From contig JAISUO010000061.1 in assembly GCA_031272035.1 (NCBI GenBank), positions 1 through 43,868 of the forward strand: a DNA stretch of 43,868 nt, read 5' to 3'. The notes under the pieces are model-generated. The model saw nothing but the letters and a program-made list of their open reading frames with translations. It was not told where the DNA came from and made no database searches. Source of the DNA: Synergistaceae bacterium (lineage in GTDB: Bacteria > Synergistota > Synergistia > Synergistales > Aminobacteriaceae). Below, one piece after another: positions 27,534-43,868 of this stretch (its first letter is position 1; the number at the start of each line of letters is the position of its first letter). A program made the translations under genes and the position numbers.

Positions 27534-27561
27534 TTGATATAGGGTAAAAGTGCCTTATACT
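27534..27561 (+). promoter_or_regulatory. Promoter of pilin gene 1
   Basis: TTGATA (27534-27539), a 16-bp spacer and TATACT (27556-27561) form a promoter repeated in the same position before all three pilin genes. The expected leader is about 80 nt. Confidence 0.75.
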
Positions 27562-27649
27562 TATCCGCACAGGTTCCAATTTGGATGGTAGAAACGAATT
27601 GGATGGCAGGAACAAATTCTGAAAGTAAATAACAAGGGAGGAATTGGTA

Positions 27650-28108
27650 ATGGTGAAAGTGCGGAAAGGTTTTACGTTGGTTGAGTTGTTGATCGTTATC
27701 GTTATTATCGGTATCCTGGCGGCGGCAATGCTTCTTTCCAGCGGCGCGGCGACGGCTTCGGCGGAGGCCTCCACGATCATCAGCGACCTGCGCAGCATGA
27801 AGGCGGCGGCTCTGATGCTCTACGCGGACAGCATGGATGTTTTTGAGAACACCACCTACAGCCTGACGGTCAACTATCTGACGCCCTACGTGGACAACCC
27901 GGCGAAGTACACGATTGCGGGCAGCCCTTATGGCCTTTCGGTGGACTCGAATGAGAGATGGTGGGTGTACTACAACCTGTCCAACAAGAGCAGCGAAGTC
28001 AAGTCCAAGCTGCAGGGCAGAGCCCAGACCACAGGACTGCTGAAGAGCACGAACCTGACGGACAGCTACACGACCGCCAGCAACACCGTGTGGATGGTCG
28101 CCCGGTAA
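27650..28108 (+). CDS. Type IV pilin, copy 1
   Basis: The 152-residue prepilin has a short basic leader ending in Gly (MVKVRKG), cleavage before Phe8, and the hydrophobic N-terminal helix FTLVELLIVIVIIGIL with the conserved Glu at mature position 5. PilD would cleave and N-methylate it; the helix packs in the pilus core. The globular part has no cysteines, so the usual C-terminal disulfide loop is absent. N-x-S/T sites occur at Asn67, Asn112 and Asn135. GGAGG lies 8 nt before the ATG. It is flanked by its own promoter and terminator. It differs from copy 3 by about eight substitutions and one inserted residue, and from copy 2 by about twenty. Confidence 0.93.
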   Translation: MVKVRKGFTLVELLIVIVIIGILAAAMLLSSGAATASAEASTIISDLRSMKAAALMLYADSMDVFENTTYSLTVNYLTPYVDNPAKYTIAGSPYGLSVDSNERWWVYYNLSNKSSEVKSKLQGRAQTTGLLKSTNLTDSYTTASNTVWMVAR

Positions 28109-28142
28109 GAAAACCCCGAAAATCTGAGAAAAATGTTTTACG

Positions 28143-28167
28143 GCCCCCCTTCGGGGGGCTTTTTTTT
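28143..28167 (+). terminator. Terminator of pilin gene 1
   Basis: GCCCCCC-TTC-GGGGGGC followed by T8 is a textbook intrinsic terminator 35 nt after the stop. Confidence 0.9.
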
Positions 28168-28239
28168 GTGCAAATTTCTCCCCTGGATTAAACGAGATTA
28201 AAAGAATATGAAAATATCAGTTTAGATTCTCAGGCCCTA

Positions 28240-28267
28240 TTGTCATGGAGTCGATGTGCCCTATACT
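28240..28267 (+). promoter_or_regulatory. Promoter of pilin gene 2
   Basis: TTGTCA (28240-28245), a 16-bp spacer and TATACT (28262-28267) match the promoters of copies 1 and 3. The palindrome before the -35 is degraded here (TAGATTCTCAGGCCCTA), so this copy may be regulated differently. Confidence 0.7.
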
Positions 28268-28358
28268 TGTGAGAAGCGGAGAGAGCGGGCGAAGGGCTTG
28301 CCCGAAGGTTGTAAGGTTGTCTGAAGTAAAAAGCGGATATTTTAAGGAGGAATGAGTG

Positions 28359-28817
28359 ATGATTAAAGTGCGAAAAGGCTTTACTCTGGTGGAGTTGTTG
28401 ATTGTTATCGTCATTATCGGTATTCTGGCGTCGGCGATGCTTCTTTCCAGCGGCGCGGCCACCGCTTCAGCCGAGGCTGCCACGATTATCAGCGACCTGC
28501 GCAGCATGAAGGCGGCGTCCCTGATGCTCTACGCGGACAGTATGGATGTTTTTGAGAACACCACCTACACCCTGACGATCACCTACCTGACGCCCTACGT
28601 GGACAACCCGGCGAAGTACATGATTACGGGCAATCCTTACGGTCTCTCGGTGGATACGAATGAGAGATGGTGGGTATACTACGACCTGACCCACAAAAGC
28701 AGCGAGGTCAAGTCCAAGCTGCAGGGCAGAGCCCAGAGCACGGGGCTTCTGAAGAGCACGAACCTGACGGACAGCTACATAAGCTCCGCCGGGACCGTGT
28801 GGATGGTGGCCCGGTAG
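28359..28817 (+). CDS. Type IV pilin, copy 2
   Basis: The 152-residue prepilin has leader MIKVRKG, cleavage before Phe8 and Glu at mature position 5 as in the other copies. It is the most divergent of the three (about twenty substitutions against copy 1, many of them Ser/Thr/Ala/Asn exchanges in the globular part). The site at Asn112 is lost (His-Lys-Ser), while Asn67 and Asn135 sites remain. There are no cysteines. AAGGAGG lies 8 nt before the ATG. It has its own promoter and terminator and so can be expressed independently of copies 1 and 3. Confidence 0.93.
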   Translation: MIKVRKGFTLVELLIVIVIIGILASAMLLSSGAATASAEAATIISDLRSMKAASLMLYADSMDVFENTTYTLTITYLTPYVDNPAKYMITGNPYGLSVDTNERWWVYYDLTHKSSEVKSKLQGRAQSTGLLKSTNLTDSYISSAGTVWMVAR

Positions 28818-28844
28818 CGCACGCGGCGGGGCGGGCAGTTTGCG

Positions 28845-28865
28845 ACCCCCTTCGGGGGGTTTTTT
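28845..28865 (+). terminator. Terminator of pilin gene 2
   Basis: ACCCCC-TTC-GGGGGGT followed by a T-run is an intrinsic terminator about 30 nt after the stop. Confidence 0.85.
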
Positions 28866-28912
28866 GTTTGTTGTTGTAAATTTTTAAAAAAATTCTAAGA
28901 ATGATATAGAAT

Positions 28913-28928
28913 TAGGTCTAAAGTCCTA
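28913..28928. promoter_or_regulatory. Palindrome abutting the pilin 3 promoter, putative operator
   Basis: TAGGTCTAAAGTCCTA matches the palindrome before pilin 1 at 15 of 16 bases and has the same position, directly before the -35 box. Confidence 0.5.
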
Positions 28929-28956
28929 TTGATATAGAGTAAATAAGCCTTATACT
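28929..28956 (+). promoter_or_regulatory. Promoter of pilin gene 3
   Basis: TTGATA (28929-28934), a 16-bp spacer and TATACT (28951-28956) are the same boxes and spacing as for pilin 1. Confidence 0.75.
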
Positions 28957-29036
28957 TTTCGCCAAAAGCTCCAGAGCGAATGAGCAGTTGGTTGATCCGG
29001 AGCGAAAAAGCAATATCCTTAAAGGAGGAATTGGTA

Positions 29037-29498
29037 ATGGTAAAAGTGCGTAAAGGTTTTACACTGGTTGAGTTGTTGATCGTTATCGTTATTATCGGTA
29101 TTCTTGCGGCGGCAATGCTTCTTTCCAGCGGCGCGGCGACGGCTTCGGCCGAGGCCTCCACGATTATCAGCGACCTGCGCAACATGAAGGCGGCGTCCCT
29201 GATGCTCTACGCGGACAGCATGGATATTTTCGAGAACAGCACCACCTACACCCTGACGGTCACCTATCTGACGCCCTACGTGGACAACCCGGCGAAGTAC
29301 ACAATTTCGGGCAGTCCTTACGGCCTCTCGGTGGATTCCACCCGCAGATGGTGGGTGTACTACAACCTGTCCAACAAGAGCAGCGAAGTCAAGTCCAAGC
29401 TGCAGGGCAGAGCTCAGACCACAGGACTGCTGAAGAGCACGAACCTGACGGACAGCTACACGACCGCCAGCAACACCGTGTGGATGGTCGCCCGGTAA
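29037..29498 (+). CDS. Type IV pilin, copy 3
   Basis: The 153-residue prepilin has the same leader, cleavage site and N-terminal helix as copy 1. Differences from copy 1 lie between about residues 49 and 103, including one inserted residue in FENSTTY; the last 50 residues are identical. N-x-S/T sites are at Asn67, Asn113 and Asn136. No cysteines are present. AAAGGAGG precedes the ATG. At the DNA level the 3' end and the sequence past the stop are almost the same as in copy 1, which indicates recent duplication or gene conversion. Confidence 0.93.
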   Translation: MVKVRKGFTLVELLIVIVIIGILAAAMLLSSGAATASAEASTIISDLRNMKAASLMLYADSMDIFENSTTYTLTVTYLTPYVDNPAKYTISGSPYGLSVDSTRRWWVYYNLSNKSSEVKSKLQGRAQTTGLLKSTNLTDSYTTASNTVWMVAR

Positions 29499-29531
29499 AA
29501 AGCCCCGAAAATCTGAGAAAAATGTTATACG

Positions 29532-29554
29532 GCCCCCTTCGGGGGGCTTTTTTT
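29532..29554 (+). terminator. Terminator of pilin gene 3
   Basis: GCCCCC-TTC-GGGGGGC followed by T7 is an intrinsic terminator 33 nt after the stop, nearly the same as that of pilin 1. Confidence 0.9.
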
Positions 29555-29631: not shown

Positions 29632-30567
29632 GTGAGTATCCTGAGGAGAGTGCTGGTCATTCCCTGTTATAACGAAGAGCTTACCATCGCGAAGGTGGTG
29701 ACGGACTTCAAAAAAGAATTGCCCGCCGATTGCAGAATTGTCGTCATGAACAACCGGTCCACCGATAACAGCGCGGAACTGGCCTCCGCGGCCGGGGCGG
29801 AGGTTTTTTTTGTGGCGCGTCAGGGCAAGGGGGCCGTGGTTCGCGAAATTTTCCGCTCCATCGACGCCGACGTTTATATCATGGTGGACGGAGACGACAC
29901 CTACCCCGCCGAAGACGTTCATAAACTTCTGGCGCCCGTCGAGGCGGGAAACTCGGATATGGCCGTGGGGGACCGCATCTCCGGCGGAGCGTACGGCCAG
30001 GTGAACGACCGGCGCTTTCACGGTTTTGGAAATATACTGGTCAAAAAATTAGTAAACTTTTGTTTTAAAAGTGATTTGCGTGATATTATGACGGGGTACA
30101 GAGTTTTCAGCCGCTCTTTTGTGGAGAATGTTCCCATTTTATCGGATGGCTTCGAGGTGGAAACGGAGATGACGATTCGAGCTCTGGATCGTAAACTTTC
30201 TATTGTGGAAATTCCCATCGCTTACAGAAATCGTCCGGAGGGGAGTTTTTCCAAGCTGAACACCCTGCGTGACGGGATGCGGGTGTTGAAAACCATTTTT
30301 TTCATTTTGAAGGATTATCGGCCTCTGCTGTTTTTCGGAGCGCTGTCCCTCTTGTTTCTCCTGGCGGGGTGCGCCTCCGGGGTTCCGGTTTTGCTGGAAT
30401 TCATGCGGACGCGTTTCATCACCCGCGTTCCTCTGGCGCTGCTGGCGACGGGGCTTGTTTTGGTTTCGGCGGTTACGCTGAACTGCGCGCTGATCCTGGA
30501 TACCTTTGTGGCGCACGAGCGTCAGCGGAACGAACTCGAACGGGTTTGCCGGAAAAATAAAAGATAG
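29632..30567 (+). CDS. Family 2 glycosyltransferase, Dpm1/GtrB-like polyprenyl-phosphate sugar synthase
   Basis: The 311-residue protein has a GT-A domain (about 1-225) with VLVIPCYNEELTIAKVV, MNNRSTDNS and the metal/nucleotide-binding DGDDTYPAED (Asp86-Asp89). DIMTGYRVFSRSFVE and the SFSKLNTLRDG region follow. Two C-terminal membrane helices (about 228-252 and 265-290) complete it. This layout is that of enzymes which move a sugar from a nucleotide donor onto undecaprenyl or dolichyl phosphate on the cytoplasmic face, supplying GT-C transferases that act on the other side. It sits between the pilins and the GT-C array, 7 nt before member A. The GTG start at 29632 has AGAGG very close by, so the exact start is uncertain. 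Confidence 0.87.
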   Translation: MSILRRVLVIPCYNEELTIAKVVTDFKKELPADCRIVVMNNRSTDNSAELASAAGAEVFFVARQGKGAVVREIFRSIDADVYIMVDGDDTYPAEDVHKLLAPVEAGNSDMAVGDRISGGAYGQVNDRRFHGFGNILVKKLVNFCFKSDLRDIMTGYRVFSRSFVENVPILSDGFEVETEMTIRALDRKLSIVEIPIAYRNRPEGSFSKLNTLRDGMRVLKTIFFILKDYRPLLFFGALSLLFLLAGCASGVPVLLEFMRTRFITRVPLALLATGLVLVSAVTLNCALILDTFVAHERQRNELERVCRKNKR

Positions 30568-30574
30568 GAATCTC

Positions 30575-32752
30575 ATGTTTCAGGCGCAAATCGCTCCTCT
30601 GGCGGCAAAACGATCTTTTTCTTTTCTGCGGGCGGCGTTTTTTTTGATGTCGTACGTTTTTCTGCCCTCCTTTATTCTCTCCGTTTTTTTATTGCTGCGG
30701 GTGGGTTCACCGGCGTTGGCCTTTGGATGTTCCCACCTGGTTCTTCCGGGGATATTTTTTTATCTGCGCCGTGAGATTTCATGGAAGGAAATTGCCGTTT
30801 TCCTTCTTTTGATCGCCTTTTCCTATGGCGTTTCCTGGTGTTTTTTTGATTTTTTTCATGACGCTCTGGCTTATTTTCAGCCCGCGATCCGCCGGATAGC
30901 CGAAGGGTTCAGTCCGGCGTACGATGGATATATGGATTTCGGGCGTTCCCCCGACGTGTGGTCCGATGCCTCCACCTTTTACCCGAAGGCCGCGATGTAC
31001 TTTGCGGCCTGCGCGCTGGCGGCGCTGGGGGACATCCAGCCGGGAAAGACTTATCATATTCTTCTTCTGTTTTCCGCCCTGTTTTATGCGATCCATGTGA
31101 CGCGAAACGACGGGTTTCTGAAAAAATGCCTGTGGATTCTGGCCTGTCTGAATCCCATCGCCCTCACCCAGTGGACTTCCCTGATCATCGACGGAGCTTT
31201 GGCCTCGCTTTCGCTGATCGGACTTTTGTTTGCTAACGCCTTTTTCACTCAAAGATCCGTTTCCAGGCTGGAATACGCTCTGGGCGTCATGGCGCTGTCT
31301 TTTCTGTTCTGCGTGAAAACGACGGGATTTGCCTATGGAAGCGTTATTCTGTTTTTCATCTGTCTGCATCGTCTGTACGCGGTTTACCGGGAAAACGAAA
31401 ATCCTCCGGCGGGGCGGCGTTTCTTCGAAGCGTTTAAAAGCGCCACTGTGACCGGACTTCGCCTTGGAGGCACGGTGCTGCTGCTGAGCGCCGTCATCGG
31501 CTTCAATCCGTACCTGACCAATCTGCGCGAGGGAAGGCATATTTTTTATCCGCTGGTTCAGGGGAGCTCCCTGGAAAAAATGGATACGGCCGCCGGACTT
31601 GAAGATATGACCAATATCGTCTATCCCGAGGCCCATAATCGATTCACGCGATTTCTTTTTTCCATTTTTGCCCATCCAAACCCGGATCCCCGTCCGGCTC
31701 GGCTGAAAAACCCCTTCAGCGCCCCCCTGTCCGACTGGTGGATTTTCGGAAACGCCTACAACCTGTACGCGGGAGGGCTGGGGCCCCTGTTCGGGCTTCT
31801 GCTGTGCCTGGCCGTTCTGGCGCAGGTTCTTTCGTCGGGAAGGGGCAACCTCTGGCTGTGGCTCACTTTGCTGATGATGACGTTCATTCAGCCTCACGCC
31901 TGGGTGCTGCGGTACAGCCCCTTTGTCTGGCTTTTTCCCTTTCTGTGTCTGGACGCGGTTCCTCAAAAGAAATCGCGCTTTTTGATCGTCCCGCTGCTGA
32001 TCGCCCTGGTGAACTCGGGGGGAGTTTTTTATTTTCTCTGCGCCGAACAGTGGCGGGCTACGCGAATGACGACGGAGGATTTTGCGCCTCACTGCGGAGA
32101 AACTGTGTTTTTGGACCGGACGATATTCGAATTTGATGGCATTTTCAATCGATTTGATCTTAAACAAAAATATGTCAACCCGGAAGAAGCCTTTTTTTTC
32201 CGATATCCAGGGCTGAGGCGCCTGGGGCAGGACGCCTCTCCCATGGGAGTCAATTTCTTTTTTTCTGAAGATTTACCTCCTCTTCCGGACTTCCCGCTGG
32301 TGCTGAGCGAGGAGAAAGCCCTGCCCTGGCTGCGGATGTCGGAAGGGCTGTCGGCCGTCGACGAGTCCGGCGGAAAAATCTGGAGGTCTTCCGGCAACAG
32401 AATCAAATTTTACCTGCGGGTCGACGACGGGCCGGAAGGCGACCTGCGCCTGACCCTGCGGGGAAAACCGTACGATCTGTACGGCCCGAGGCCCGATCTG
32501 AGCGTTGGGGTGTTCGTCGGCGACCGGTGGGTGGGAACCTGGAAGGCGGGCTGTGAGAACGAAGCCGGGGGGACTTTTATCGTTCCCGCGCGGTTATTGA
32601 AAGAAGCCTTTGAAGCGGAAGGTCGTCTTTTGACGCTGATGCTGCGCATCCCCGCCGTTCCCTTCAGCCTTCCGAAGTGGGAAACGGCTTCCTTCGGACT
32701 GGAGCTGGAAAGGGTGGAACTTCTCCCCTGGCGGGAGAAACCGGCGTCCTGA
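30575..32752 (+). CDS. GT-C-like membrane glycosyltransferase with C-terminal beta-sandwich domain, paralogue A
   Basis: The 725-residue protein has about 12-13 membrane helices (residues 12-505) and a soluble C-terminal part. Directly after helix 3 comes FFDFFHDALAYFQPAI, with Asp92 and Asp96. The Asp in an HDALxYxxPA context resembles the first-loop catalytic acid of GT-C (ArnT/PMT-like) enzymes, which use lipid-linked sugars outside the membrane. The C-terminal region (about 510-725) ends in a pattern like the DUF7024-type beta-sandwich (VFVGDRWVGTW...FIVPARLLKEAF...LLTLMLRIP), likely sugar-binding. AGGA precedes the ATG, 7 nt after the family 2 gene. The fold call is from motif memory and hydropathy by eye; acceptor and sugar are unknown. 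Confidence 0.78.
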   Translation: MFQAQIAPLAAKRSFSFLRAAFFLMSYVFLPSFILSVFLLLRVGSPALAFGCSHLVLPGIFFYLRREISWKEIAVFLLLIAFSYGVSWCFFDFFHDALAYFQPAIRRIAEGFSPAYDGYMDFGRSPDVWSDASTFYPKAAMYFAACALAALGDIQPGKTYHILLLFSALFYAIHVTRNDGFLKKCLWILACLNPIALTQWTSLIIDGALASLSLIGLLFANAFFTQRSVSRLEYALGVMALSFLFCVKTTGFAYGSVILFFICLHRLYAVYRENENPPAGRRFFEAFKSATVTGLRLGGTVLLLSAVIGFNPYLTNLREGRHIFYPLVQGSSLEKMDTAAGLEDMTNIVYPEAHNRFTRFLFSIFAHPNPDPRPARLKNPFSAPLSDWWIFGNAYNLYAGGLGPLFGLLLCLAVLAQVLSSGRGNLWLWLTLLMMTFIQPHAWVLRYSPFVWLFPFLCLDAVPQKKSRFLIVPLLIALVNSGGVFYFLCAEQWRATRMTTEDFAPHCGETVFLDRTIFEFDGIFNRFDLKQKYVNPEEAFFFRYPGLRRLGQDASPMGVNFFFSEDLPPLPDFPLVLSEEKALPWLRMSEGLSAVDESGGKIWRSSGNRIKFYLRVDDGPEGDLRLTLRGKPYDLYGPRPDLSVGVFVGDRWVGTWKAGCENEAGGTFIVPARLLKEAFEAEGRLLTLMLRIPAVPFSLPKWETASFGLELERVELLPWREKPAS

Positions 32753-32784
32753 CGCGGAGCCGGTTATTTCAGGAGGGGTTTTCA

Positions 32785-35025
32785 GTGTTCCGCAAAAACG
32801 TGAAATTTTCTTTTATCGATGTTTCGCTGCTTCTTCTGCTTTACGTTTTTTTGCCGTCGTTTCTTCTTTCCGTCTTTTTGCTGCTGAGGACGGCTTCCCC
32901 CGCCGCGGCCTACGGGACATCTCTTTGTATTCTGGGCGGGCTGATTCTCCTCCGACGGAAGGAAACCGGCTGGAGGGAATGCCTGTGCTTTGTCGCCATT
33001 GTCGTCGTCAGCCACCTTGTTTCCTATATCTTTTTCGACTTTTTTCACGACGCTCTGGTCTACCATCAGCCGGCGATCAGCCGTATTGCCGCGGGCTTCA
33101 ATCCCGTGTACGACGGCTATATGAGCTTTGGGCGTCCTCACGATACCTGGAGCGACCAGGCGACGTATTTTCCCAGAATGGCCTGGTATTTTGCGGCATC
33201 GGTCACGGCGGTTTTCGGAGACATCCAGTGGGGAAAGGCCTATCACCTGATTCTGCTTTTTGCGACGGTTCTGTTCGTGTTTCATCACACCCGCGGAGAG
33301 TCTTTTCTGAGACGTTTTTTCTGGCTGCTGGCCGCTCTGAACCCCATAGCCGCGCTTCAGTTTACGGGGTATCTGGTGGACGGGGCGCTGGCCTCTCTGT
33401 CCACGATGGGGCTTTTTTACGCGTATCTTCATTTTTCAGAGAAGCCCCTGACCCGACTTTCGCATGTCATCGGGGTTCTTTGCCTGGCGATGCTCTTTTG
33501 CGTCAAAACGTCGGGGTTTGCCTATGGCGGCATCATCCTGTTCTGTATTGCTCTCCATCGTCTTCTGGAGACCTGGCGCGCCTCGTCGGGGAACTGGAAG
33601 GCCCGCGGGAAAACGGCTTTTATGCGGGCCGCGAAGCTGAGCCTGAAGCTGGGAGTTCCTCTTCTGTGCCTGGTGGTCGTGCTGGGGTTTTCTCCTTATA
33701 TCACCAATCTTCTGCAGGGAAAGAATATTTTTTATCCACTGATGGGAGTGGACGCTTCCGCCGACAGTAATGTGTCGCTGGCCTTGGAGGAACTGGCGCG
33801 GTCCGTTTTTCCCGACGCTCATAATCGTTTCACGAGGCTTCTCTTTTCCATCGCGTCCTACCCTGTGGTTACGGTTTATCCCGACACGCGCCTGAACGCT
33901 CTTTTCGCCTCTCCCGCCGAACTTAAAAACCCCCTGGGGGCTCCATGGATTGAATGGAAACTGTTTCGGGGAGGCGGACTTGCCGTGGCCGGAGGTTTGG
34001 GCCCCCTGTTTTTTCTGCTGTTCCTGTTGAGCTTCATTTACTGGATTTTTTCCCTGACGCTGAAAAACGGAGAGCGAAAGGGCTGGGTGTGGATGCTTTT
34101 CACTCTGGGATTGCTGCTTTTTATACAGCCTCACGCCTGGTTTGCGCGGTACGCCCCTTTTCTCTGGATGACGCCTTTCGTGTTTTGTCTGTCCCTTCCC
34201 CGAGAGAAGGATTATCTTCTTGTGGCGCCGATTATCCTCGCCCTGGCCAACATTGCGGGAACGACCTGGGTGTATGCGGACGATTCCTGGGAAAATACCC
34301 GGCGGATCGTCAGGGCTCTCGCCCCTTACAGCGGGCAGTATGTCCTTTTGGATAAAAGCGTTTTTCAGTGTGATGGATTTTTCGATCGATTTGGGATTAA
34401 ACAAAAATTTGCCAATCCGGAACAGACGACTTTTCCCGGGGCCTCTTTCTGGACGGAACGTCGGGAGCGTCACCTGGGCAGACCGGTGTTCGGCAGCAAC
34501 ATCGCCTTCGAAGAGGACATTCCCCCTCTGCCGGACTTTCCCGTTCTGCTGGCGGAGAAGGAAGCCGAGCCCTGGCGGAAAATGGCGGAGGGCATTATGC
34601 TGTACGACCCGTCGGAACAGCCCACGCTGATGACGATCTCCGCCTTCCCCGTTCCCAAAGGCTGCTGGAACTATTCCAACAAGGTCAAATTTTATGTGCA
34701 GGTGAAGGAACGGCCGGAGACGGACAGAAATTTCCTGCTTACCGCCTCCCCTCGGGTGGATGAAAAAGGAGATTTCGCGAAACAGTCGATTGAGATTTAC
34801 GCCAACAATCAGCGGATAGGGGAGTGGCTTTTCGACCGTCCGGAACCGGAGGAGAAAACCGTCCTTCTCCCTCGAAAAATTCTGGAGGAAAGTTATGAGG
34901 ATGAAATGCATTTGCTGACGGTGATGCTGCGGCTGACGAACCCTGATGTTCCCAAAGCCTGGCAGGAATTCAGCCTGATGTTCGAAAAAATGGAATTTCG
35001 CCCGATATTTCAGATAGATAATTAA
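32785..35025 (+). CDS. GT-C-like membrane glycosyltransferase, paralogue B (most divergent)
   Basis: The 746-residue protein has the same plan as A: helices, FFDFFHDALVYHQPAI with the D-x3-D pair, NPVYDGYMSFGR, and a C-terminal beta-sandwich (IEIYANNQRIGEWLF...VLLPRKILEESYEDEMHLLTV split over several strands). It is the outlier of the family. The first-loop motif has YHQP, closer to the YHLP of other GT-C proteins; the usual LNPI-x-LTQW is LNPIAALQF; and the loop before HNRFTRLLFSI and the domain near residue 630 are longer. GTG at 32785 follows AGGAGGGG by 6 nt and lies 32 nt after A. It may have a different donor or acceptor. Confidence 0.77.
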   Translation: MFRKNVKFSFIDVSLLLLLYVFLPSFLLSVFLLLRTASPAAAYGTSLCILGGLILLRRKETGWRECLCFVAIVVVSHLVSYIFFDFFHDALVYHQPAISRIAAGFNPVYDGYMSFGRPHDTWSDQATYFPRMAWYFAASVTAVFGDIQWGKAYHLILLFATVLFVFHHTRGESFLRRFFWLLAALNPIAALQFTGYLVDGALASLSTMGLFYAYLHFSEKPLTRLSHVIGVLCLAMLFCVKTSGFAYGGIILFCIALHRLLETWRASSGNWKARGKTAFMRAAKLSLKLGVPLLCLVVVLGFSPYITNLLQGKNIFYPLMGVDASADSNVSLALEELARSVFPDAHNRFTRLLFSIASYPVVTVYPDTRLNALFASPAELKNPLGAPWIEWKLFRGGGLAVAGGLGPLFFLLFLLSFIYWIFSLTLKNGERKGWVWMLFTLGLLLFIQPHAWFARYAPFLWMTPFVFCLSLPREKDYLLVAPIILALANIAGTTWVYADDSWENTRRIVRALAPYSGQYVLLDKSVFQCDGFFDRFGIKQKFANPEQTTFPGASFWTERRERHLGRPVFGSNIAFEEDIPPLPDFPVLLAEKEAEPWRKMAEGIMLYDPSEQPTLMTISAFPVPKGCWNYSNKVKFYVQVKERPETDRNFLLTASPRVDEKGDFAKQSIEIYANNQRIGEWLFDRPEPEEKTVLLPRKILEESYEDEMHLLTVMLRLTNPDVPKAWQEFSLMFEKMEFRPIFQIDN

Positions 35026-35037
35026 GAATGGGTTCCG

Positions 35038-35050
35038 GGGGGACGCCCCC
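35038..35050. other. GC hairpin between paralogues B and C
   Basis: GGGGG-ACG-CCCCC is a 5-bp perfect hairpin in the 71-nt spacer. It has no T-run, so it is not a clear terminator; it could be a REP-like element or an mRNA stability structure. Confidence 0.3.
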
Positions 35051-35096
35051 TGAGTTTGGTTGTATATCTGTGAAAAGTTTTCTGGAGGTGCAAAGC

Positions 35097-37307
35097 GTGG
35101 AACTGAGGGAAACGGAAGGACAAACAGAAGGACAGGGGCTTTTTTCCCCTCTGAATGTGGCGTTTTTTCTGGTGCTGTACGTGTTTTTGCCTTCGTTCAT
35201 TCTGTCTGTTTTTTTGCTGCTGCGGACGGGCTCTCCGGCTTTGGCCTTCGGATGTTCTCATGTCATCCTGCTGGGGACGGTTTTTTATCCGCGCCGGAAA
35301 ATGAACGGGCGGGAGGGCGTTCTTTTCGTCCTTTTACTCCTTGCCGCTTATGCCGTTTCCTGGTACTTTTTCGATTTTTTCACGGACGGACTGGCTTATT
35401 TTCAGCCCGCCATCCGCCGTATTGCGGCAGGTTTCAATCCCCTGTACGACGGCTATATGAATCTCGGCCGCCCGAAGGATCTCTGGTCCGAGGTGGCCAC
35501 CTATTATCCGAAGTCCATGGTGTACTTCGCGGCCTGCGCTACGGCCGCTCTTGGGGACATTCAGTTCGGAAAAGCCGGGCACGTTCTTCTTTTTGCGGCT
35601 GTGGTCCTTTATACCGCCCACGCCACCCGAGGGGAGTCCGCCGTCAAAAAGTGCGTGTGGTTCGCGGCCTGTTTGAACCCCGTCATCCTCACTCAATGGA
35701 CGACCACGATCATCGACGGGGACCTGGCGTCCCTCTGTTCGATCGGACTGCTGTTCGCGAACGCCTTTTTTACGGGCCGGACCCTCTCGAAGAGAGAATA
35801 CGCCTTGGGCGTTATGGCGCTGTCGCTGCTGTTCGGCGTGAAGACGACGGGTTTTCCCTATGGAAGCATCCTTGTTTTCTTTATTTGCGTGCATTGTCTC
35901 TGGAAGGCGTGGCGGAAGAAGGGTTTTTGGAACGCTCTGAGGCGGACCTTCAGGCCGGGACTGAAACTGGGCGGAACGGTGCTTCTCGTGAGCTGCGTTC
36001 TCAATTTTCATCCCTATATCACCAACCTGCGGGAGGGGAAAAATATTTTTTATCCCGTGATTCAGTCCTTCCACAGCCCTTCCCCTACCAATCTGGACGC
36101 GCTGGGGAACGATGTCTATCCCGACGCTCACAATCGTTTTACGAGGCTGTTTTTTTCCGTCTTTTCTCATCCGGAGGTCAAATCCGTCCCCGCGAAGCTG
36201 AAAAATCCCTTTGAAGCTTCCGTGGCCGACTGGAAGCCCTTTGAGGCCACCTACAACATGTACGCGGGGGGGCTGGGGCCCCTGTTCGGTCTTTTGCTGG
36301 TCATGGCGGTTCTGGCGCAGGTTTTTTCGAAGGGTCGGGGAAACCTTTGGCTGCTTCTGACGCTGCTGCTCCTGACCTTCATCCAGCCTCACGCCTGGGT
36401 GCTGAGGTACAGCCCCTTCGTCTGGCTTTTTCCCTTCGTCTGCCTGAGCGTCGTTCCCGAGCGGTGGAAACTCTTTCTGACCGTTCCTCTGCTGGTGGCG
36501 GTCCTTAACGTGGGAGGCATCCTGTTTTTCTTCTGGACGTACCAGTGGCGTTTAAGCCGGGATCTGAGAGAAATGCTGGAACCTTACCGGGGATCGGTGG
36601 TTTTTCTGGATGAAACGGTCTTCCAGTGGGAGGGTATTTTTGACCGGTTCGGCCTGAAGCGCAAATATGTGAACCCGGAGGAAACCGTTTTTTCCAGAGT
36701 TCCGGCTCTCGGACATCTGGCCCTGAGCCGCACTCCCGACGGAGTGAACCTGTTTTTCCCGGAGGACCTGCTCCCTCTGCCGGAGTTCCCGCTGGCCCTG
36801 AATCAGAGGGAAGCCTTTCCCTGGCTTCGCATGTCGGAGGGACTCTTTCCGGAGGAAATTTCCCTGGACGGCCAGCTCGACGTCGTCTGGCGTTCCTATG
36901 GCAATAAAATCAAATTTTTCATGCGAGTCGACCGTGCCCCGGAGAGAGACGGGGTTCTGACCCTGCGCGGAAATTCCTACTCCATCGACGGAGTTCCGCC
37001 CGACCTGTCTCTGCCGGTATTGATCGACAATCAGCCCGTTGGAGAGTGGAAAATTACTCCTGAGGCGGGGGAGCAAAAGTTTTCCATTCCCCGGAAGCTG
37101 CTGGAGGGGTCTTTTGAGGACGACGGGCATCTTTTGACGCTGATGTTGCGTATCCCCGCCGTTTCTCTCAAAATTCTGCCAACCGGGCGAATCGATCCCG
37201 CGACCTTCGGCCTGGAACTGGAGGGGCTGGAGTTCGGTTTGGGCGCGGAGAAAGCGGATGACGGAGACGCCGGCGGTGCGGAAGAAAAGGGGGAAACATC
37301 TCGATGA
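35097..37307 (+). CDS. GT-C-like membrane glycosyltransferase, paralogue C
   Basis: The 736-residue protein shares the family plan, with FFDFFTDGLAYFQPAI (Asp93, Asp97; the usual His before the second Asp is Thr), a Tyr-Pro-Lys segment (EVATYYPKSMVYFAACATAALGDI split), NFHPYITNLREGKNIFYP and the C-terminal beta-sandwich with VLIDNQPVGEW and FSIPRKLLEGSF. It has a short polar N-terminal tail of about 20 residues before helix 1. GTG at 35097 was chosen because GGAGGTG lies 6 nt upstream; the frame is open back to 35028 but that stretch has no ribosome site and covers a GC hairpin. The stop overlaps the start of D. Confidence 0.78.
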   Translation: MELRETEGQTEGQGLFSPLNVAFFLVLYVFLPSFILSVFLLLRTGSPALAFGCSHVILLGTVFYPRRKMNGREGVLFVLLLLAAYAVSWYFFDFFTDGLAYFQPAIRRIAAGFNPLYDGYMNLGRPKDLWSEVATYYPKSMVYFAACATAALGDIQFGKAGHVLLFAAVVLYTAHATRGESAVKKCVWFAACLNPVILTQWTTTIIDGDLASLCSIGLLFANAFFTGRTLSKREYALGVMALSLLFGVKTTGFPYGSILVFFICVHCLWKAWRKKGFWNALRRTFRPGLKLGGTVLLVSCVLNFHPYITNLREGKNIFYPVIQSFHSPSPTNLDALGNDVYPDAHNRFTRLFFSVFSHPEVKSVPAKLKNPFEASVADWKPFEATYNMYAGGLGPLFGLLLVMAVLAQVFSKGRGNLWLLLTLLLLTFIQPHAWVLRYSPFVWLFPFVCLSVVPERWKLFLTVPLLVAVLNVGGILFFFWTYQWRLSRDLREMLEPYRGSVVFLDETVFQWEGIFDRFGLKRKYVNPEETVFSRVPALGHLALSRTPDGVNLFFPEDLLPLPEFPLALNQREAFPWLRMSEGLFPEEISLDGQLDVVWRSYGNKIKFFMRVDRAPERDGVLTLRGNSYSIDGVPPDLSLPVLIDNQPVGEWKITPEAGEQKFSIPRKLLEGSFEDDGHLLTLMLRIPAVSLKILPTGRIDPATFGLELEGLEFGLGAEKADDGDAGGAEEKGETSR

Positions 37308-39517
37308 TGATTCAGAATAAATCTGCGGAACGGAGCTCTCCGGAGGCGGAGCGCCTTTTTTCTCCTTTGCTGATGGCGTTTTTTCTGGTGTTGTATGTCT
37401 TTTTGCCTTCGTTTATTTTGTCGGTATTTCTGCTGCTGAGAGTGGGGTCCCCGACGGTCGCTTATGGATGTTCCCACGCCGTTTTACTGGCCCTGGCTTT
37501 TTACCTGCGCCAGAGAATAAGTATGGAAATAAACTGGACGACAGTTCTCGTTTTTGCAGGGCTTCTGGTTATCGCCCACGCCGTTTCCTGGTATTTTTTC
37601 GACTTTTTTCACGACGGGCTGGCCTACTTTCAGCCGGCGATAAGTCAGATCGCGGGAGGCTTCAATCCGGTTTACGACGGCTATATGGACTTTGGCCGAG
37701 GGCCGGACATCTGGTCCGACGTGGCCACGTACTATCCGAAGTCGACAATGTACTTCGCGGCCTGTCTGACGGCGGCGTTGGGAGATGTTCAATTCGGCAA
37801 GGTCAGCCATATTCTTCTTTTTGCGGCCACGCTTTTTTACGCAGCGGAGACGACGCGAGGGGAGTCCCTCCTGAAAAAATGCGTCTGGTATCTGGCCTGT
37901 CTGAATCCCATCATTTTGAACCAGTGGACGTCGCTGATCGTGGACGGGGACCTTGCCTCTCTCTGCCTGATCGGGCTGCTGTTCGCGAACAGTTTTTTCA
38001 AAGGGAAAATGATTTCGGGCGTGGAGTACGCTTTGGGGATCATGGCGCTGGCGCTGCTGTTCGGCGTGAAAACCACGGGATTTCCCTATGGAAGCATCAT
38101 TATTTTCTTCATCTGTGTGAATCGGCTTTGGACGGAGTACGCGAAGCGACCGGACGAAAGAGCAGGGCCGCGTTTTTTCAGAGCCCTGGGAAATGCCTTC
38201 CGGCCGGGTCTGCGCCTTGGAGGGATGGTCCTGCTCGTGAGCTGCGTTCTCAATTTTCATCCTTATATCACCAATCTGCGTGAGGGAAAAAATATTTTTT
38301 ATCCTGCGGTTCAGTCTTTTCAGACGAATCAGCCCTCCTATTTGGATCAAATTGGAGACGCGGTGTACCCGACCCGGCACGATCGTTTCACAAGGCTGCT
38401 TTTTTCCATTTTTGCCTCTCCCATGTCGACTCTGTCTCCGGCCTGGATTCGCTCCCCCCTCAGCTCTCCGGCGCCGGACTGGCGGCACTTCGAGAACTCG
38501 TACAACATCTACGCGGGCGGGCTCGGCCCCTGGTTCGGTTTGCTGCTCTGCGCCGCCATCCTTCTGCAGGTCCTCCTGAAGGGCCCGGGAAATCTCTGGT
38601 TATTGCTTACGCTGCTTTTGATGACCTTCATTCAGCCTCACGCCTGGGTGCTGAGGTACAGCCCCTTCGTGTGGCTGTTCCCTTTTGTGTGTCTGGACAG
38701 CGTTCCCGAAAAGAAAAAAGTTTTTATCGCGCTCCCTCTGCTGCTTGCGGCCTTCAATGCGGGCGGGATCGCATTTTTTTCCGGAAGGTATCAATGGTAC
38801 TTCAACCTGTGGCTGCGGGATTTTTTTGAACCCTGCCGGGGGAAAATCGTTTTTATGGATCAGTCGATATTTGATTTCGACAGTATTTTTAAACGATTCT
38901 CCGTCACTCCGGAATATGTGAATCCGGAAGAGGTCGTTTTTCACAGAAATCCGGGATTTGGACGCCTGGCGCAGGATCGGGACGCGAAGGGCGTCAATAT
39001 CTTTCTGGCCGAGGACCTGCTTCCTCCGCCGGAGTTTTCGATGAACCTGAGTGACGAGGCGGCCCTGCCCTGGCTTTACATGTCGGAGGGACTCGTCCCC
39101 TCGGAGGAGTACCAGGAGGGACGTCGCGTGAGAATCTGGCGCTCCTACAGCAACAGGGTCAAATTTTTCATGTCTTTCGATCGAAAACCCGAAAACGACT
39201 GGCTTTTGACGCTGAAGGGAAAACTCTATACAAATTATGCGCTGATCTCGAATTTGTCTGTCGTGCCCTTTGTAAACGATCAGGCCATAGGGGTGTGGAA
39301 AATCGACCGCACGGGAAACGAACAAACTTTTGTCGTGCCCCGAAAATTGCTGGAAAAGGCCTTCAACGAGGAGGGACACCTTCTGAAGCTGATGCTGCGT
39401 ATGCCCGCGGTCTCTTCCGTGAGTCTGTCCCAGTGGAAGACGTCGGACTTCGGGCTGGAACTGGAAAGCCTGGAGCTGCGGCCAAAGATCGGAGACGACG
39501 ATGCCGATTCAAAATGA
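37304..39517 (+). CDS. GT-C-like membrane glycosyltransferase, paralogue D
   Basis: The 737-residue protein is close to C, E and F. It has a polar N-terminus, FFDFFHDGLAYFQPAI with the D-x3-D pair, FNPVYDGYMDFGRGPDIWSD, QWTSLIVDGDLASL, QPHAWVLRYSPFVWLFPF and a C-terminal beta-sandwich with VPFVNDQAIGVW and FVVPRKLLEKAF. Its ATG overlaps the TGA of C (ATGA), so translation is coupled; an in-frame ATG three bases later is also possible. A region of about 30 bp near 38290-38320 is identical to E, a sign of recent duplication or conversion. Confidence 0.78.
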   Translation: MMIQNKSAERSSPEAERLFSPLLMAFFLVLYVFLPSFILSVFLLLRVGSPTVAYGCSHAVLLALAFYLRQRISMEINWTTVLVFAGLLVIAHAVSWYFFDFFHDGLAYFQPAISQIAGGFNPVYDGYMDFGRGPDIWSDVATYYPKSTMYFAACLTAALGDVQFGKVSHILLFAATLFYAAETTRGESLLKKCVWYLACLNPIILNQWTSLIVDGDLASLCLIGLLFANSFFKGKMISGVEYALGIMALALLFGVKTTGFPYGSIIIFFICVNRLWTEYAKRPDERAGPRFFRALGNAFRPGLRLGGMVLLVSCVLNFHPYITNLREGKNIFYPAVQSFQTNQPSYLDQIGDAVYPTRHDRFTRLLFSIFASPMSTLSPAWIRSPLSSPAPDWRHFENSYNIYAGGLGPWFGLLLCAAILLQVLLKGPGNLWLLLTLLLMTFIQPHAWVLRYSPFVWLFPFVCLDSVPEKKKVFIALPLLLAAFNAGGIAFFSGRYQWYFNLWLRDFFEPCRGKIVFMDQSIFDFDSIFKRFSVTPEYVNPEEVVFHRNPGFGRLAQDRDAKGVNIFLAEDLLPPPEFSMNLSDEAALPWLYMSEGLVPSEEYQEGRRVRIWRSYSNRVKFFMSFDRKPENDWLLTLKGKLYTNYALISNLSVVPFVNDQAIGVWKIDRTGNEQTFVVPRKLLEKAFNEEGHLLKLMLRMPAVSSVSLSQWKTSDFGLELESLELRPKIGDDDADSK

Positions 39518-41720
39518 AACCGAAAGACTGATGCCGACCCAGCTGTACATGGCGTTTTTTCTGGTGCTGTACGTGTTTTTGCCTTCTTTCATTCTCTCGG
39601 TGTTCCTGCTGCTGCGCGTGGGGTCTCCCGCTCTGGCCTTCGGGTGTTCTCATGCCGTCCTGCCGGCGGCGGCGTTTTACCTGTACCGCCGCGGGAAAAT
39701 CTCCTGGCGGGACGTCGTTCTGTTCGTTCTCGTCATTGGAGCCGCATATGGCGTTTCCTGGTGGTTTTTTGACTTTTTTCACGACGGCCAGGCCTACTTT
39801 CAGCCCGCGATAAAGCGGATAGCCAAGGGCTTCAATCCGGTGTACGACGGTTATATGGACTTCGGCCGGGCCCCCGACGTCTGGTCCGAGGTGGCCACGT
39901 ACTACCCGAAGTCCATCATGTATTTCGCGGCGTGTCTGACGGCGGTTTTCGGGGATATTCAGTTTGGAAAAGCCAGTCATATTGTCCTCTTCGCGGCTTC
40001 AATCTTTTATACGGCGCATGTGACCCGAAGCGAATCCTTCCTCAAAAAATGCGTCTGGTATCTGGCCTGCCTGAACCCCATCGTCCTGACGGAGTGTACG
40101 ACGCTGGTCGTCGACGGGGATCTGGGTTCCCTCTCTCTGATCGGGCTCCTGTTTGCCGGAGTTTTTTTCAGAGGCGGAGTTCCCTCAGGCGTGGAGTACA
40201 CCCTGGGGATCGTGTCGCTGGCTCTGCTGTTCGGAGTGAAGACGACCGGTTGCCCCTATGGGAGCATCATTCTTTTCTTTATTTGTGTGAACAGGCTTTG
40301 GGTGGAGTACGTGAAAAGGTCGGGAGAATCGACGGGAAAGCGCCTTTTCGATGCCCTGGGAAGTTCGTTCCGGCTGGGCCTGCGGCTTGGAGGAATGGTC
40401 TTTCTGGTGAGCTGTGTCCTCAATTTTCATCCATATCTGACCAATCTGCGGGAGGGGAAGAATATTTTTTATCCTGCGGTTCAGTCTTTTCGTGTAAATC
40501 AGCCAACGGGCCTGGATCACGTTGAAGACGAAGTTTATCCCATGGCCCACAACCGTTTTACGAGGCTGCTTTTTTCCATCATGGCCCGTGCGGTTCCGGA
40601 CATCGAACCCGCCAGGATTCGGAACCCCTTCAGTTCGCCCTTTCCCGACTGGCGGCTGCTCGCCAACGGACCCAGCGTCCACGGGGGAGCTATGGGGCCT
40701 CTGTTCGGAATTTTTCTGTGCCTGTCCGTTCTGGCGGGGGTTCTGCTGCGTGATGAGGACAGGACCAGGGTCGGAGAAAACTTTTGGCTGCTGCTGACAC
40801 TGCTTTTGATGACCTTTATTCAGCCTTACGCCTGGACGCTGCGGTACGCTCCCTTCGTGTGGCTTTTCCCTTTTGTGTGTCTGGACGGCGTTTCCGGAAA
40901 AAAGGAACGGGTGCTGATCGTTCTCCTGCCGATTGCGGCGGTCAACGCGGGGGGCCTTTTATTTTTCTTCGGGGAAAATCAATGGAAAAGCAATTGGGCC
41001 ATGAGACAAAATCTCCAGCCCTATGAGGGAGAAGTCGTATTTTTGGACCGGTCGATCTTCGACTTTGCCGGCATTTTTGACCGGTTCCGCCTTCGGCAAA
41101 AATACATCAATCCGGAAGAGGTCCTCTTCCACAGATTTCCGGAAATCGGGCATTTGGCCTGGAGCCGCACTCCCGACGGGGTGAACGTCTTTTTCCCGGA
41201 AGATCTGCTTCCCCTGCCGGAGCAGCCCCTGACGCTCAACAGCGAAAAGGCTCTGCCCTGGCTGCGGATGTCGGAAGGACTTGTTCCCATCGAAATTTAT
41301 CGGGAAGGCATCGCGGAAACTGTCTGGAGGTCCTCCGGCAATAAGGTCCGGTTTTTCATGAAGGTCGATGAAAAGCCGAAAAGCGGTCTGAGCCTGATTC
41401 TCAATGGGGCGCTGTATCCCGCCTCCGCCGGGGACGGGAAGGAACTGCCGGTGGTGGTCTTTGTAAATCATCAGCCCCTTGGAGTCTGGAGCGTGAAGGC
41501 CGACGGCGGTGAAAAACGTTTCGTCATCCCACGGTCGCTGCTGGAAGAATCCTTTGAGGACGACGGGCATCTCCTGATTTTGTCGCTGCGCATTCCCTCC
41601 GTTTCTTTCATGACCTTACGCGATGCGGTGTCTCCCTTTGGCCTGAGGCTGGATCGTCTGGAGTTTCGGCCCGGCTCTGAAAATAAAAACGAAAATGACG
41701 GGCAGGTGGAGCTCCGATGA
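39501..41720 (+). CDS. GT-C-like membrane glycosyltransferase, paralogue E
   Basis: The 739-residue protein has FFDFFHDGQAYFQPAI, in which Gln replaces the usual Leu after the D-x3-D-G, and the other family blocks (KGFNPVYDGYMDFGR, NFHPYLTNLREGKNIFYP, FVNHQPLGVW, FVIPRSLLEESF). The loop before the helix near 40740 carries a short insertion (RDEDRTRVGEN). GGAG lies 6 nt before the ATG, which is 17 nt inside the end of D. Its stop overlaps the start of F by 4 nt. Confidence 0.78.
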   Translation: MPIQNETERLMPTQLYMAFFLVLYVFLPSFILSVFLLLRVGSPALAFGCSHAVLPAAAFYLYRRGKISWRDVVLFVLVIGAAYGVSWWFFDFFHDGQAYFQPAIKRIAKGFNPVYDGYMDFGRAPDVWSEVATYYPKSIMYFAACLTAVFGDIQFGKASHIVLFAASIFYTAHVTRSESFLKKCVWYLACLNPIVLTECTTLVVDGDLGSLSLIGLLFAGVFFRGGVPSGVEYTLGIVSLALLFGVKTTGCPYGSIILFFICVNRLWVEYVKRSGESTGKRLFDALGSSFRLGLRLGGMVFLVSCVLNFHPYLTNLREGKNIFYPAVQSFRVNQPTGLDHVEDEVYPMAHNRFTRLLFSIMARAVPDIEPARIRNPFSSPFPDWRLLANGPSVHGGAMGPLFGIFLCLSVLAGVLLRDEDRTRVGENFWLLLTLLLMTFIQPYAWTLRYAPFVWLFPFVCLDGVSGKKERVLIVLLPIAAVNAGGLLFFFGENQWKSNWAMRQNLQPYEGEVVFLDRSIFDFAGIFDRFRLRQKYINPEEVLFHRFPEIGHLAWSRTPDGVNVFFPEDLLPLPEQPLTLNSEKALPWLRMSEGLVPIEIYREGIAETVWRSSGNKVRFFMKVDEKPKSGLSLILNGALYPASAGDGKELPVVVFVNHQPLGVWSVKADGGEKRFVIPRSLLEESFEDDGHLLILSLRIPSVSFMTLRDAVSPFGLRLDRLEFRPGSENKNENDGQVELR

Positions 41721-43868
41721 CGACACGGCTTTCAGGTGAAATGGCGGTAAAAGAGGTTCCCAAAATTTTCTCGCCTCTGATGGTGGCGTTTTTTCTGGTG
41801 TTGTACGTCTTTTTGCCCTCCTTCATTCTGTCGGCGTTTTTATTGCTGAGAGTTGGCTCGCCGGCGGGCGCGTACCTGTGCGCTCACGCCGCTCTGCTGG
41901 GGACGGCCGTTTATTTGCGTCGGGAAATAACGTGGAGGGAAATCGTCGTTTTTATAATGATTCTTTTCGTCGCCCATGGCCTTTCCTGGTATTTTCTCGA
42001 CATGATGCACGACGGACTGGCCTACTTTCAGCCCGCGATACGACGGATCGCCGGAGGCTTCAACCCCGTATACGACGGTTACATGGACCTGGGCCGGGCT
42101 CCGGACGTCTGGTCCGAGGTGGCCACGTACTATCCGAAATCGGTCATGTACTTCGCGGCGTGCCTGACGGCGGCTCTGGGGGATATTCAGTTCGGGAAGG
42201 TCAGTCATGTTCTTCTTTTTGCGGCGACGCTTTTTTACACGGCCCATGTAAAGCGGGGCGAATCCCTTCTCAAAAAATGCCTGTGGTACGCGGCCTGTCT
42301 GAATCCCATCATTGCGCTGGAGTGGACGACTCTGGTCATCGATGGAGACCTGTCGGCTCTTTGTTTGATCGGCCTGTTGTTCGCGAATGGTTTTTTCCGA
42401 AAAAAAGTTCCGTCGGGCGTCGAGTTCGCCCTTGGGGTCATGTCGCTGTCCCTGCTGTTCGGGGTGAAGACCACGGGGTTTCCCTACGGGAGCATCATTA
42501 TTTTCTTCATCTGTGTAAATTGTTTGTGGGAGGAATACAGGAAACGACAAAAAGAAGGCTCGGGATCCTGTTTCGGAGCGCTGAGAAAATCCTGCGCGTT
42601 GGGGCTGCGGCTTGGAGGGATGGTGATTCTCGTGAGCTGCGTGATGAATTTTCATCCTTACATCACCAACCTGCGGGAGGGGAAGAATATTTTTTACCCT
42701 GCAGTGCAGTCTTTCCAGAAGGAAACGTCGTCGATTATAAGCGATTATGGAGACACCGTTTATCCTTTGGCCCGCAATCGCGTCACAAGACTTCTTTTTT
42801 CGATTTTTTCCCATCCGGGAGGGCAGCTTATTCCCGCAAGGCTCAGAAATCCTCTGAGTTCTCCCGTGGCCGACTGGAAAGTTTTCGAAAACGCGTATCA
42901 TACCCACACGGGAGGTCTGGGGCCTCTGTTCGGCCTTTTGCTGTGCGTCGCGATATTGCTGCAGGTGCTGTTGAGGGGTCGGGGAAACCTCTGGCTCTGG
43001 CTCACTCTGCTGCTGATGACCTTCATTCAGCCTTACGCCTGGACGCTGCGGTACGCGCCCTTTGTGTGGCTTTTTCCCTTTTTGTGTCTGGATACCCTTC
43101 CCGAAAGGAAAGGTCTGTTTTTAAGCGTGCCGTTGCTGCTGGCGCTTTTCAACACGGGAGGGATGGCGTTTTTCTTTTGCCGATACCAATGGAGTTTCAA
43201 CGGATGGATACGAGAGCTTCTGGAGCCTCATCAGGGAGAGACCGTTTTTCTGGACCGGTCGATCTTCGAGTTTGACGGTGTTTTTGATCGATTCCACATC
43301 AAACAGGAATACGTCAATCCGGAGGAGATCGTTTTTCACAGAAATCCGGGGCTTGGACATCTGGCGCAGAGTCGTACCGGGACGGGGGTCAATTTTTTCT
43401 TCGCGGAAGATTTGCTCCCCCTGCCGGAGTTTCCTCTGAGTTTGAGAGAGGAGCGGGCTCTGCCCTGGCTGAAAATGTCGGAGGGCCTCATTCCCGTCGA
43501 GGACTATCAGGAAGGCGCCGCCGTAACGGTGTGGAGATCCTACAGCAACAGGGTCAAGTTTTTTATGAAGGTCGATCGAAAACCGGAAGGCGACCAGATC
43601 CTGACGCTGACAGGAAAAGAGTATCCCGCAACCGCACTGTTGCCGGATTTGTCACTGGTGGTATTTGTCAATGATCGGTCGCTTGGGACATGGACGGTTC
43701 TCCGGACGGGAGATACGGAACGGGCTTTTGTCGTTCCCCGAAACCTGTTGGAAGAGGCCTTTGAGAGCGAGGGTCACCTCCTGACTCTGATGCTGCGCAT
43801 CCCCTCCATTTCTTCCGGAGCGCAGTCGGGCGGCCGGTCTTCCTGTGGTTTGGAGCTGAAAAGCATAG
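41717..43868 (+). CDS. GT-C-like membrane glycosyltransferase, paralogue F (3' end beyond the window)
   Basis: The frame starts at ATG 41717 (ATGA overlap with the stop of E, GGTGGAG 5 nt upstream) and stays open for 717 codons to the window edge; paralogues suggest about 20 more residues. It has FLDMMHDGLAYFQPAI (D-x3-D kept, Phe-Phe changed to Met-Met), GGFNPVYDGYMDLGRAPDVWSE, NFHPYITNLREGKNIFYP, QPYAWTLRYAPFVWLFPF and the beta-sandwich with VVFVNDRSLGTW and FVVPRNLLEEAF. The array may continue to the right. Confidence 0.77.
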   Translation, partial: MTTRLSGEMAVKEVPKIFSPLMVAFFLVLYVFLPSFILSAFLLLRVGSPAGAYLCAHAALLGTAVYLRREITWREIVVFIMILFVAHGLSWYFLDMMHDGLAYFQPAIRRIAGGFNPVYDGYMDLGRAPDVWSEVATYYPKSVMYFAACLTAALGDIQFGKVSHVLLFAATLFYTAHVKRGESLLKKCLWYAACLNPIIALEWTTLVIDGDLSALCLIGLLFANGFFRKKVPSGVEFALGVMSLSLLFGVKTTGFPYGSIIIFFICVNCLWEEYRKRQKEGSGSCFGALRKSCALGLRLGGMVILVSCVMNFHPYITNLREGKNIFYPAVQSFQKETSSIISDYGDTVYPLARNRVTRLLFSIFSHPGGQLIPARLRNPLSSPVADWKVFENAYHTHTGGLGPLFGLLLCVAILLQVLLRGRGNLWLWLTLLLMTFIQPYAWTLRYAPFVWLFPFLCLDTLPERKGLFLSVPLLLALFNTGGMAFFFCRYQWSFNGWIRELLEPHQGETVFLDRSIFEFDGVFDRFHIKQEYVNPEEIVFHRNPGLGHLAQSRTGTGVNFFFAEDLLPLPEFPLSLREERALPWLKMSEGLIPVEDYQEGAAVTVWRSYSNRVKFFMKVDRKPEGDQILTLTGKEYPATALLPDLSLVVFVNDRSLGTWTVLRTGDTERAFVVPRNLLEEAFESEGHLLTLMLRIPSISSGAQSGGRSSCGLELKSI

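Follow-up and report, generated by a model that had tools for sequence, protein, structure and literature searches.

A pilin-adjacent tandem array of six GT-C-like glycosyltransferase genes in a Synergistaceae bacterium

The window (the whole stretch of DNA analysed, 43,868 nucleotides) is the entire contig C61 of the source genome, G000, a Synergistaceae bacterium whose assembly is 98% complete. On one strand it holds, in this order, pilB-pilT-pilC, three pilins, one family 2 glycosyltransferase (GT2) and six large paralogous genes, denoted A to F. The pilus genes and their putative control elements are as follows.

21991..24846, + strand: pilB-like assembly ATPase, 84-86% identical to relatives at syntenic loci
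24870..25967, + strand: pilT-family ATPase (TIGR01420, 452 bits)
25998..27233, + strand: pilC/gspF-like platform protein (NCBIfam scan)
27534..27561, + strand: promoter-like site of pilin 1 (TTGATA-16-TATACT), part of a 70-nt block that recurs ahead of pilin 3
27650..28108, + strand: type IV pilin 1 (PF07963)
28142..28160, + strand: intrinsic terminator after pilin 1
28240..28267, + strand: promoter-like site of pilin 2 (TTGTCA-16-TATACT)
28356..28817, + strand: type IV pilin 2 (PF07963)
28844..28861, + strand: intrinsic terminator after pilin 2
28929..28956, + strand: promoter-like site of pilin 3 (TTGATA-16-TATACT)
29037..29498, + strand: type IV pilin 3 (PF07963)
29531..29548, + strand: intrinsic terminator separating pilin 3 from the glycosylation module (counterparts at L024:6956-6979 and L060:8186-8171)

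Positions 27534-29548 thus hold three pilin cassettes in tandem. Each measures about 700 bp and has a GC-rich terminator of its own, and the promoter-like sites of the three are similar. Identity to pilin 2 is 86% both for pilin 1 and for pilin 3. The GT2 gene starts about 80 nt past the third terminator. No promoter-like match was found on its strand just upstream, so the module may depend on read-through. In the PilB-like ATPase a long Pro/Ala-rich linker lies between two N-terminal regions that resemble each other.

The GT2 gene and the array were located as follows.

29632..30567, + strand: GT2, predicted polyprenyl-phosphate-sugar synthase of the GtrB/Dpm1/AglJ type with two C-terminal TM helices (PF00535; AglJ model; PDB 5mlz)
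30575..32752, + strand: GT-C paralogue A (AGGA 9 nt upstream of the start)
about 32785..35025, + strand: GT-C paralogue B, a separate, older subfamily (tree; modelled fold; start inferred from the ribosome site)
about 35097..37307, + strand: GT-C paralogue C (ORF, paralogy)
37304..39517, + strand: GT-C paralogue D (ORF, structure model)
37601..37615, + strand: Asp100-x3-Asp104 motif of D, within the modelled GT-C core's first large extracytoplasmic loop (invariant in 16/16)
39029..39499, + strand: CBM-like β-sandwich of D, residues 576-732 (Z 9-10 to CBM22, CBM35, CBM6 and related sandwiches)
39501..41720, + strand: GT-C paralogue E (ORF, paralogy)
41717..43868, + strand: GT-C paralogue F, 717 codons, open because the contig end cuts the gene

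The preliminary description of this DNA had noted six adjacent paralogous polytopic proteins after one GT2, and this stands: A-F are all on the + strand, in ORFs of more than 700 codons, and share 40-68% pairwise identity, so that a chance origin of their likeness is no issue. Its statement that the genes mostly overlap holds for half of the junctions (C/D by 4 nt, D/E by 17 nt, E/F by 4 nt); the other three are short gaps (GT2/A 7 nt, A/B about 32 nt, B/C about 70 nt). No seventh copy occurs elsewhere in the 98%-complete assembly and no contig in it overlaps the cut end of F, and the copy number in this assembly is therefore six. We attempted to reach the far side of the array through the gene that adjoins the array of G001; its sole match in G000 is 31% identical and does not lie at a contig edge.

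The first gene had been described as a Dpm1-like family 2 glycosyltransferase with two C-terminal helices. Indeed, the protein matches PF00535 in the Pfam scan, its closest entry in the PDB is the dolichol-phosphate-mannose synthase 5mlz (E 6e-13), and it scores 229 bits against the AglJ equivalog TIGR04182, under the curated cut-off of 325 bits; the C-terminal TM pair is read from the sequence. The enzyme probably makes a lipid-linked sugar of the polyprenyl-phosphate type. Enzymes of the GtrB/Dpm1 type load sugar onto polyprenyl phosphate, and this lipid-sugar serves GT-C enzymes as donor on the outer side of the membrane; systems combining GtrB with a GT-C enzyme (and a CBM) are already known (PMC11127046). 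The array locus encodes the GT2 synthase and no transporter, and no GtrA-type flippase (PF04138) was found in the G000 genome. A single GT2 implies a single donor, which fits different linkages or positions of one sugar better than the earlier suggestion that each paralogue adds a different sugar. The donor itself may differ from that of related loci, since the GT2 is only ∼ 26% identical to the GT2 at the pilin locus of G005 and falls in another subgroup than the GT2s at other pilin loci. Its closest relative (63%) is also in G005, on contig C147 (L065:7592-10038), where it adjoins a 478-residue membrane protein without a family match that may be another transferase.

Family searches with A-F gave no Pfam match at E < 1 for five of the six proteins and one match below the cut-off, CLN6, for paralogue E; the NCBIfam scan returned sub-threshold matches only, and the family profile matched none of the sequences of solved structures. 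DUF7024, which the preliminary description had proposed for a profile search, is absent from the Pfam scan of A-F. Kinship with ArnT/PMT_2 at the level of sequence was rejected (hhalign of the family against ArnT-like/PMT_2 proteins of relatives, 0.7% probability). Two copies were therefore compared as structure models, D (pLDDT 70, pTM 0.66) and B, the most divergent copy (pLDDT 71, pTM 0.69). The membrane part of D matches AftA (Z 12.6), Pmt4 (12.6), ArnT (12.3), AglB (11.9), Pmt1/2 (11.9) and ALG12 (11.3), and also STT3, over a Z range of about 9.4-12.6; that of B matches Pmt4 (13.7), ArnT (12.3), AftD (12.1) and AftA (12.0), together with Pmt1/2, AglB, AftB, PglB and DPY19. These values are moderate for helical proteins. 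The membrane-part matches in both searches were GT-C enzymes only, with no other membrane fold among them, and the two divergent models thus agree in assigning A-F to the GT-C glycosyltransferases by fold, as their first description as GT-C-like, and the comparison with ArnT proposed there, had anticipated.

The Asp-x3-Asp motif reported for the first loop is invariant: D100 and D104, together with K256, R364 and R451, are conserved in 16/16 family members (numbering of D), a set that includes 10 sequences from other genomes. In the model of D, the two Asp residues come after the helix that aligns with the first GT-C helices of Pmt4, ArnT and AglB, which would put them in the core's first extracytoplasmic loop, although both models have low confidence in the region of the motif. 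The C-terminal β-sandwich also appears in both models, as a domain matching carbohydrate-binding modules or related sandwiches. Some of its best Z values are to the binding components of bacterial toxins and to Cry proteins; we read these as reflecting the common CBM-type sandwich and not a toxin-like function. Judged by sequence searches and models together, A-F form a sequence family that is new, though its fold is known, and that has no Pfam or NCBIfam match.

Of 188 Synergistota genomes searched with a profile, 10 contain the family, and these all belong to the window's own taxonomic family (named records are Synergistaceae or Synergistales). G000 is the only genome seen with more than two copies, in line with the earlier remark that six are unusual. 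The gene neighbourhoods of relatives are as follows.

G005 (L024): pilB-T-C, pilin, GT2, GT-C; one GT-C copy
G108 (L060): pilB-T-C, two pilins, two CptA/EptA-like transferases, GT2, GT-C; one GT-C copy
G110: pilB-T-C, two pilins, two transferases, GT2 to the contig end; GT-C genes on other contigs
G010 (L022): GT-C immediately ahead of an O-antigen-ligase-like gene and a minor-pilin/prepilin cluster
G006 (L023): GT-C beside GT2, no pilins
G111 and G113: GT-C away from pilins

The pilin-accessory location first noted in the window therefore recurs in other genera, at the main pilin locus in G005 and G108 and at the minor-pilin cluster in G010; relatives of the array genes do lie near pilins, and the array is not in an O-antigen locus. 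Pilin linkage is thus seen at two pilus loci, the main locus in three genera and the minor-pilin locus in a fourth, and a terminator follows the last pilin at all three main-locus examples (the window, L024 and L060, from three genera). Most other Synergistaceae pilin loci have no module within the stretch read, and several end soon after PilC; this census rests on tblastn, codon-usage gene calls being unreliable at several loci. The module appears to be an optional addition to the pilus locus. In G110, one GT-C gene (L063:3218-5413) carries an in-frame stop and is probably a pseudogene. A second pilus cluster of G000, on contig C102 (L155:5767-19220), has an O-antigen-ligase-like gene followed by several prepilin/secretion-type genes, and homologous clusters occur in G010, G108 and G111; it is the same cluster as that of G010, without the GT-C gene. 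Neither viral contigs nor plasmids contained relatives of the array, and a viral or plasmid origin was discarded.

In the tree, B groups with proteins of G005, G006 and G057 (100/99), and A and C-F form one clade with G001 (100/100). The congener G001 has two copies or more, and the two compared are each other's closest relatives (77% identity over 124 residues), which indicates that each congener built up its array at least partly on its own. Such separate duplication, and the tandem arrangement itself, would fit redundant copies kept for dosage, or a stock from which recombination or phase variation could switch surface glycans. We regard this as quite improbable, since the paralogue pairs are old (dS about 1 or more), all copies are intact and constrained (dN/dS 0.22-0.39), no 120-nt stretch is more than 89% identical between copies, and all copies appear to be translated, to judge by their start sites and tight spacing. 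No simple-sequence repeats were found in the array region, which speaks against phase variation. The age and constraint of the copies favour a division of labour over dosage.

The layout resembles the pilin-accessory cassettes of Pseudomonas aeruginosa, in which an accessory gene follows the pilin and a Rho-independent terminator and two kinds of which encode pilin glycosyltransferases; TfpO and TfpW of these cassettes glycosylate pilin, and TfpW is reported to add homopolymers of D-arabinofuranose (PMC11841053). As in the TfpW and TfpO cassettes, the glycosyltransferase gene comes right after the major pilin and its terminator, and this arrangement is observed in the window, L024 and L060. 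The P. aeruginosa cassettes carry one transferase, whereas the window, from another phylum, carries six with a dedicated GT2; the likeness to TfpW is one of layout. Two further systems share the enzymology. GT136 (Citrobacter ORF12) likewise combines a GT-C core, a C-terminal CBM-like domain and a polyprenyl-phosphate sugar donor (PMC11127046), but its systems use a phosphoribose-synthase route, a MATE flippase and an O-antigen acceptor, in contrast to the GT2-type synthase and flippase-free locus described here. Shigella GtrA-GtrB-Gtr pairs a GT2 making undecaprenyl-phosphate sugar with a linkage-specific GT-C enzyme (PMC11127046); the window differs in its six transferases, a genome without GtrA and no viral relative found. 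Thus the GT-C family is new and the copy number unusual, while the kind of system is already known.

The preliminary interpretation is upheld in part, for the GT-C fold with its acidic loop motif, the type of the GT2 and the pilin-accessory location. By analogy with these cassettes, the locus most likely decorates pili, and six transferases would make that decoration unusually elaborate. Our preferred explanation, which we hold to be probable on balance, is a pilin-accessory GtrB/GT-C glycosylation module whose transferase has been amplified to six linkage- or position-specific enzymes. To the fold, conserved acidic motif, gene order and constraint on all copies observed here it adds what we infer, namely enzymatic activity, the sugar, the supply of all six enzymes by this one GT2, pilin as acceptor and a division of labour. 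On the cytoplasmic side the GT2 would load polyprenyl phosphate with a single kind of sugar, a flippase encoded outside the locus would turn the lipid-sugar over, and the six GT-C enzymes would transfer the sugar outside the membrane to pilins or to glycan on pilins. The GT-C gene would have duplicated long ago and its copies diverged, each now making a different linkage or acting at a different position of the glycan. The CBM-like domain, found also in GT136, points to a glycan acceptor, as would suit a C-terminal sugar-binding domain.

Such a domain would equally suit a polysaccharide, and the same enzymes might instead have a different surface glycan as target (LPS O-chain, capsule or S-layer), the pilin neighbourhood being incidental or a convenient site of expression. 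The best-studied GtrB and GT-C systems modify O-antigen (PMC11127046), and the gene lies away from pilins in G006, G111 and G113, so that the pilin as target stays a matter of inference. We consider this alternative rather unlikely, given pilin linkage at two different pilus loci in four genera in all, a terminator layout that matches pilin-accessory cassettes, and the position of the other O-antigen-ligase-like cluster of G000 on another contig with no array gene. The placement in these three genomes, the many pilin loci without a module, the lack of PF04138 in the genome, the low identity of the GT2 to that of the G005 pilin locus and the modest confidence of the models nonetheless count against the pilin-accessory module.

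Three pilins and six enzymes in one locus could also mean that each paralogue, though pilin-directed, serves its own acceptor site or its own pilin and is not a step in one glycan. The window pilins are the richest in Ser/Thr of 22 compared (24-28% after the N-terminal helix; others 10-21%), an enrichment that is only suggestive, the three paralogues counting as one event. This possibility appears doubtful: pilins about 86% identical offer few distinct acceptors, and other genera have one GT-C enzyme with one or two pilins. A single Neisseria pathway modifies up to five sites, and their number and choice are set mainly by the pilin sequence, so six sites need not mean six enzymes (PMC4569582).

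Several enzymes sharing one lipid-linked donor have a precedent among the glycosyltransferases matched by the D and B models. In mycobacteria, AftA, AftB, AftD and Emb are GT-C enzymes that use one lipid-linked arabinose to form different linkages. A-F resemble them in fold (Z about 12 to AftA in both models) and differ in that the mycobacterial acceptor is the cell wall and that A-F match none of the Pfam families. A bolder and less likely reading is that A-F form a six-enzyme extracytoplasmic line which, from one lipid-linked sugar, builds a branched or variably linked pilus glycan in the manner of mycobacterial arabinan synthesis, with enzymes of an undescribed GT-C family. If the pilin-accessory module is correct, that family would be added to the known ones and pilin-accessory glycosylation, on which the literature searched held nothing for Synergistaceae, would be shown in this group. 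It would also provide a natural copy series, from the single copy of G005 and of G108 through two or more in G001 to the six of the window, for following change in GT-C linkage or acceptor. The locus is modular, with pilins, a terminator and then phosphoethanolamine-transferase-like, GT2 and GT-C genes that can be exchanged, so that a comparison of relatives could test how pili are decorated.

Neisseria pilins carry both glycans and phospho-forms, and in that genus an oligosaccharide is moved en bloc by the O-oligosaccharyltransferase PglL. In G108 and G110, likewise, CptA/EptA-like transferases are encoded in the pilin locus; the window's genome has no such genes. Pairs of CptA/EptA-like phosphoethanolamine-transferase genes precede GT2 at L060:4578-8089, L066:5504-8868 and L067:1743-5262, and those in L060 and L066 stand between the pilins and GT2, where they may serve a phospho-form modification of pilin.
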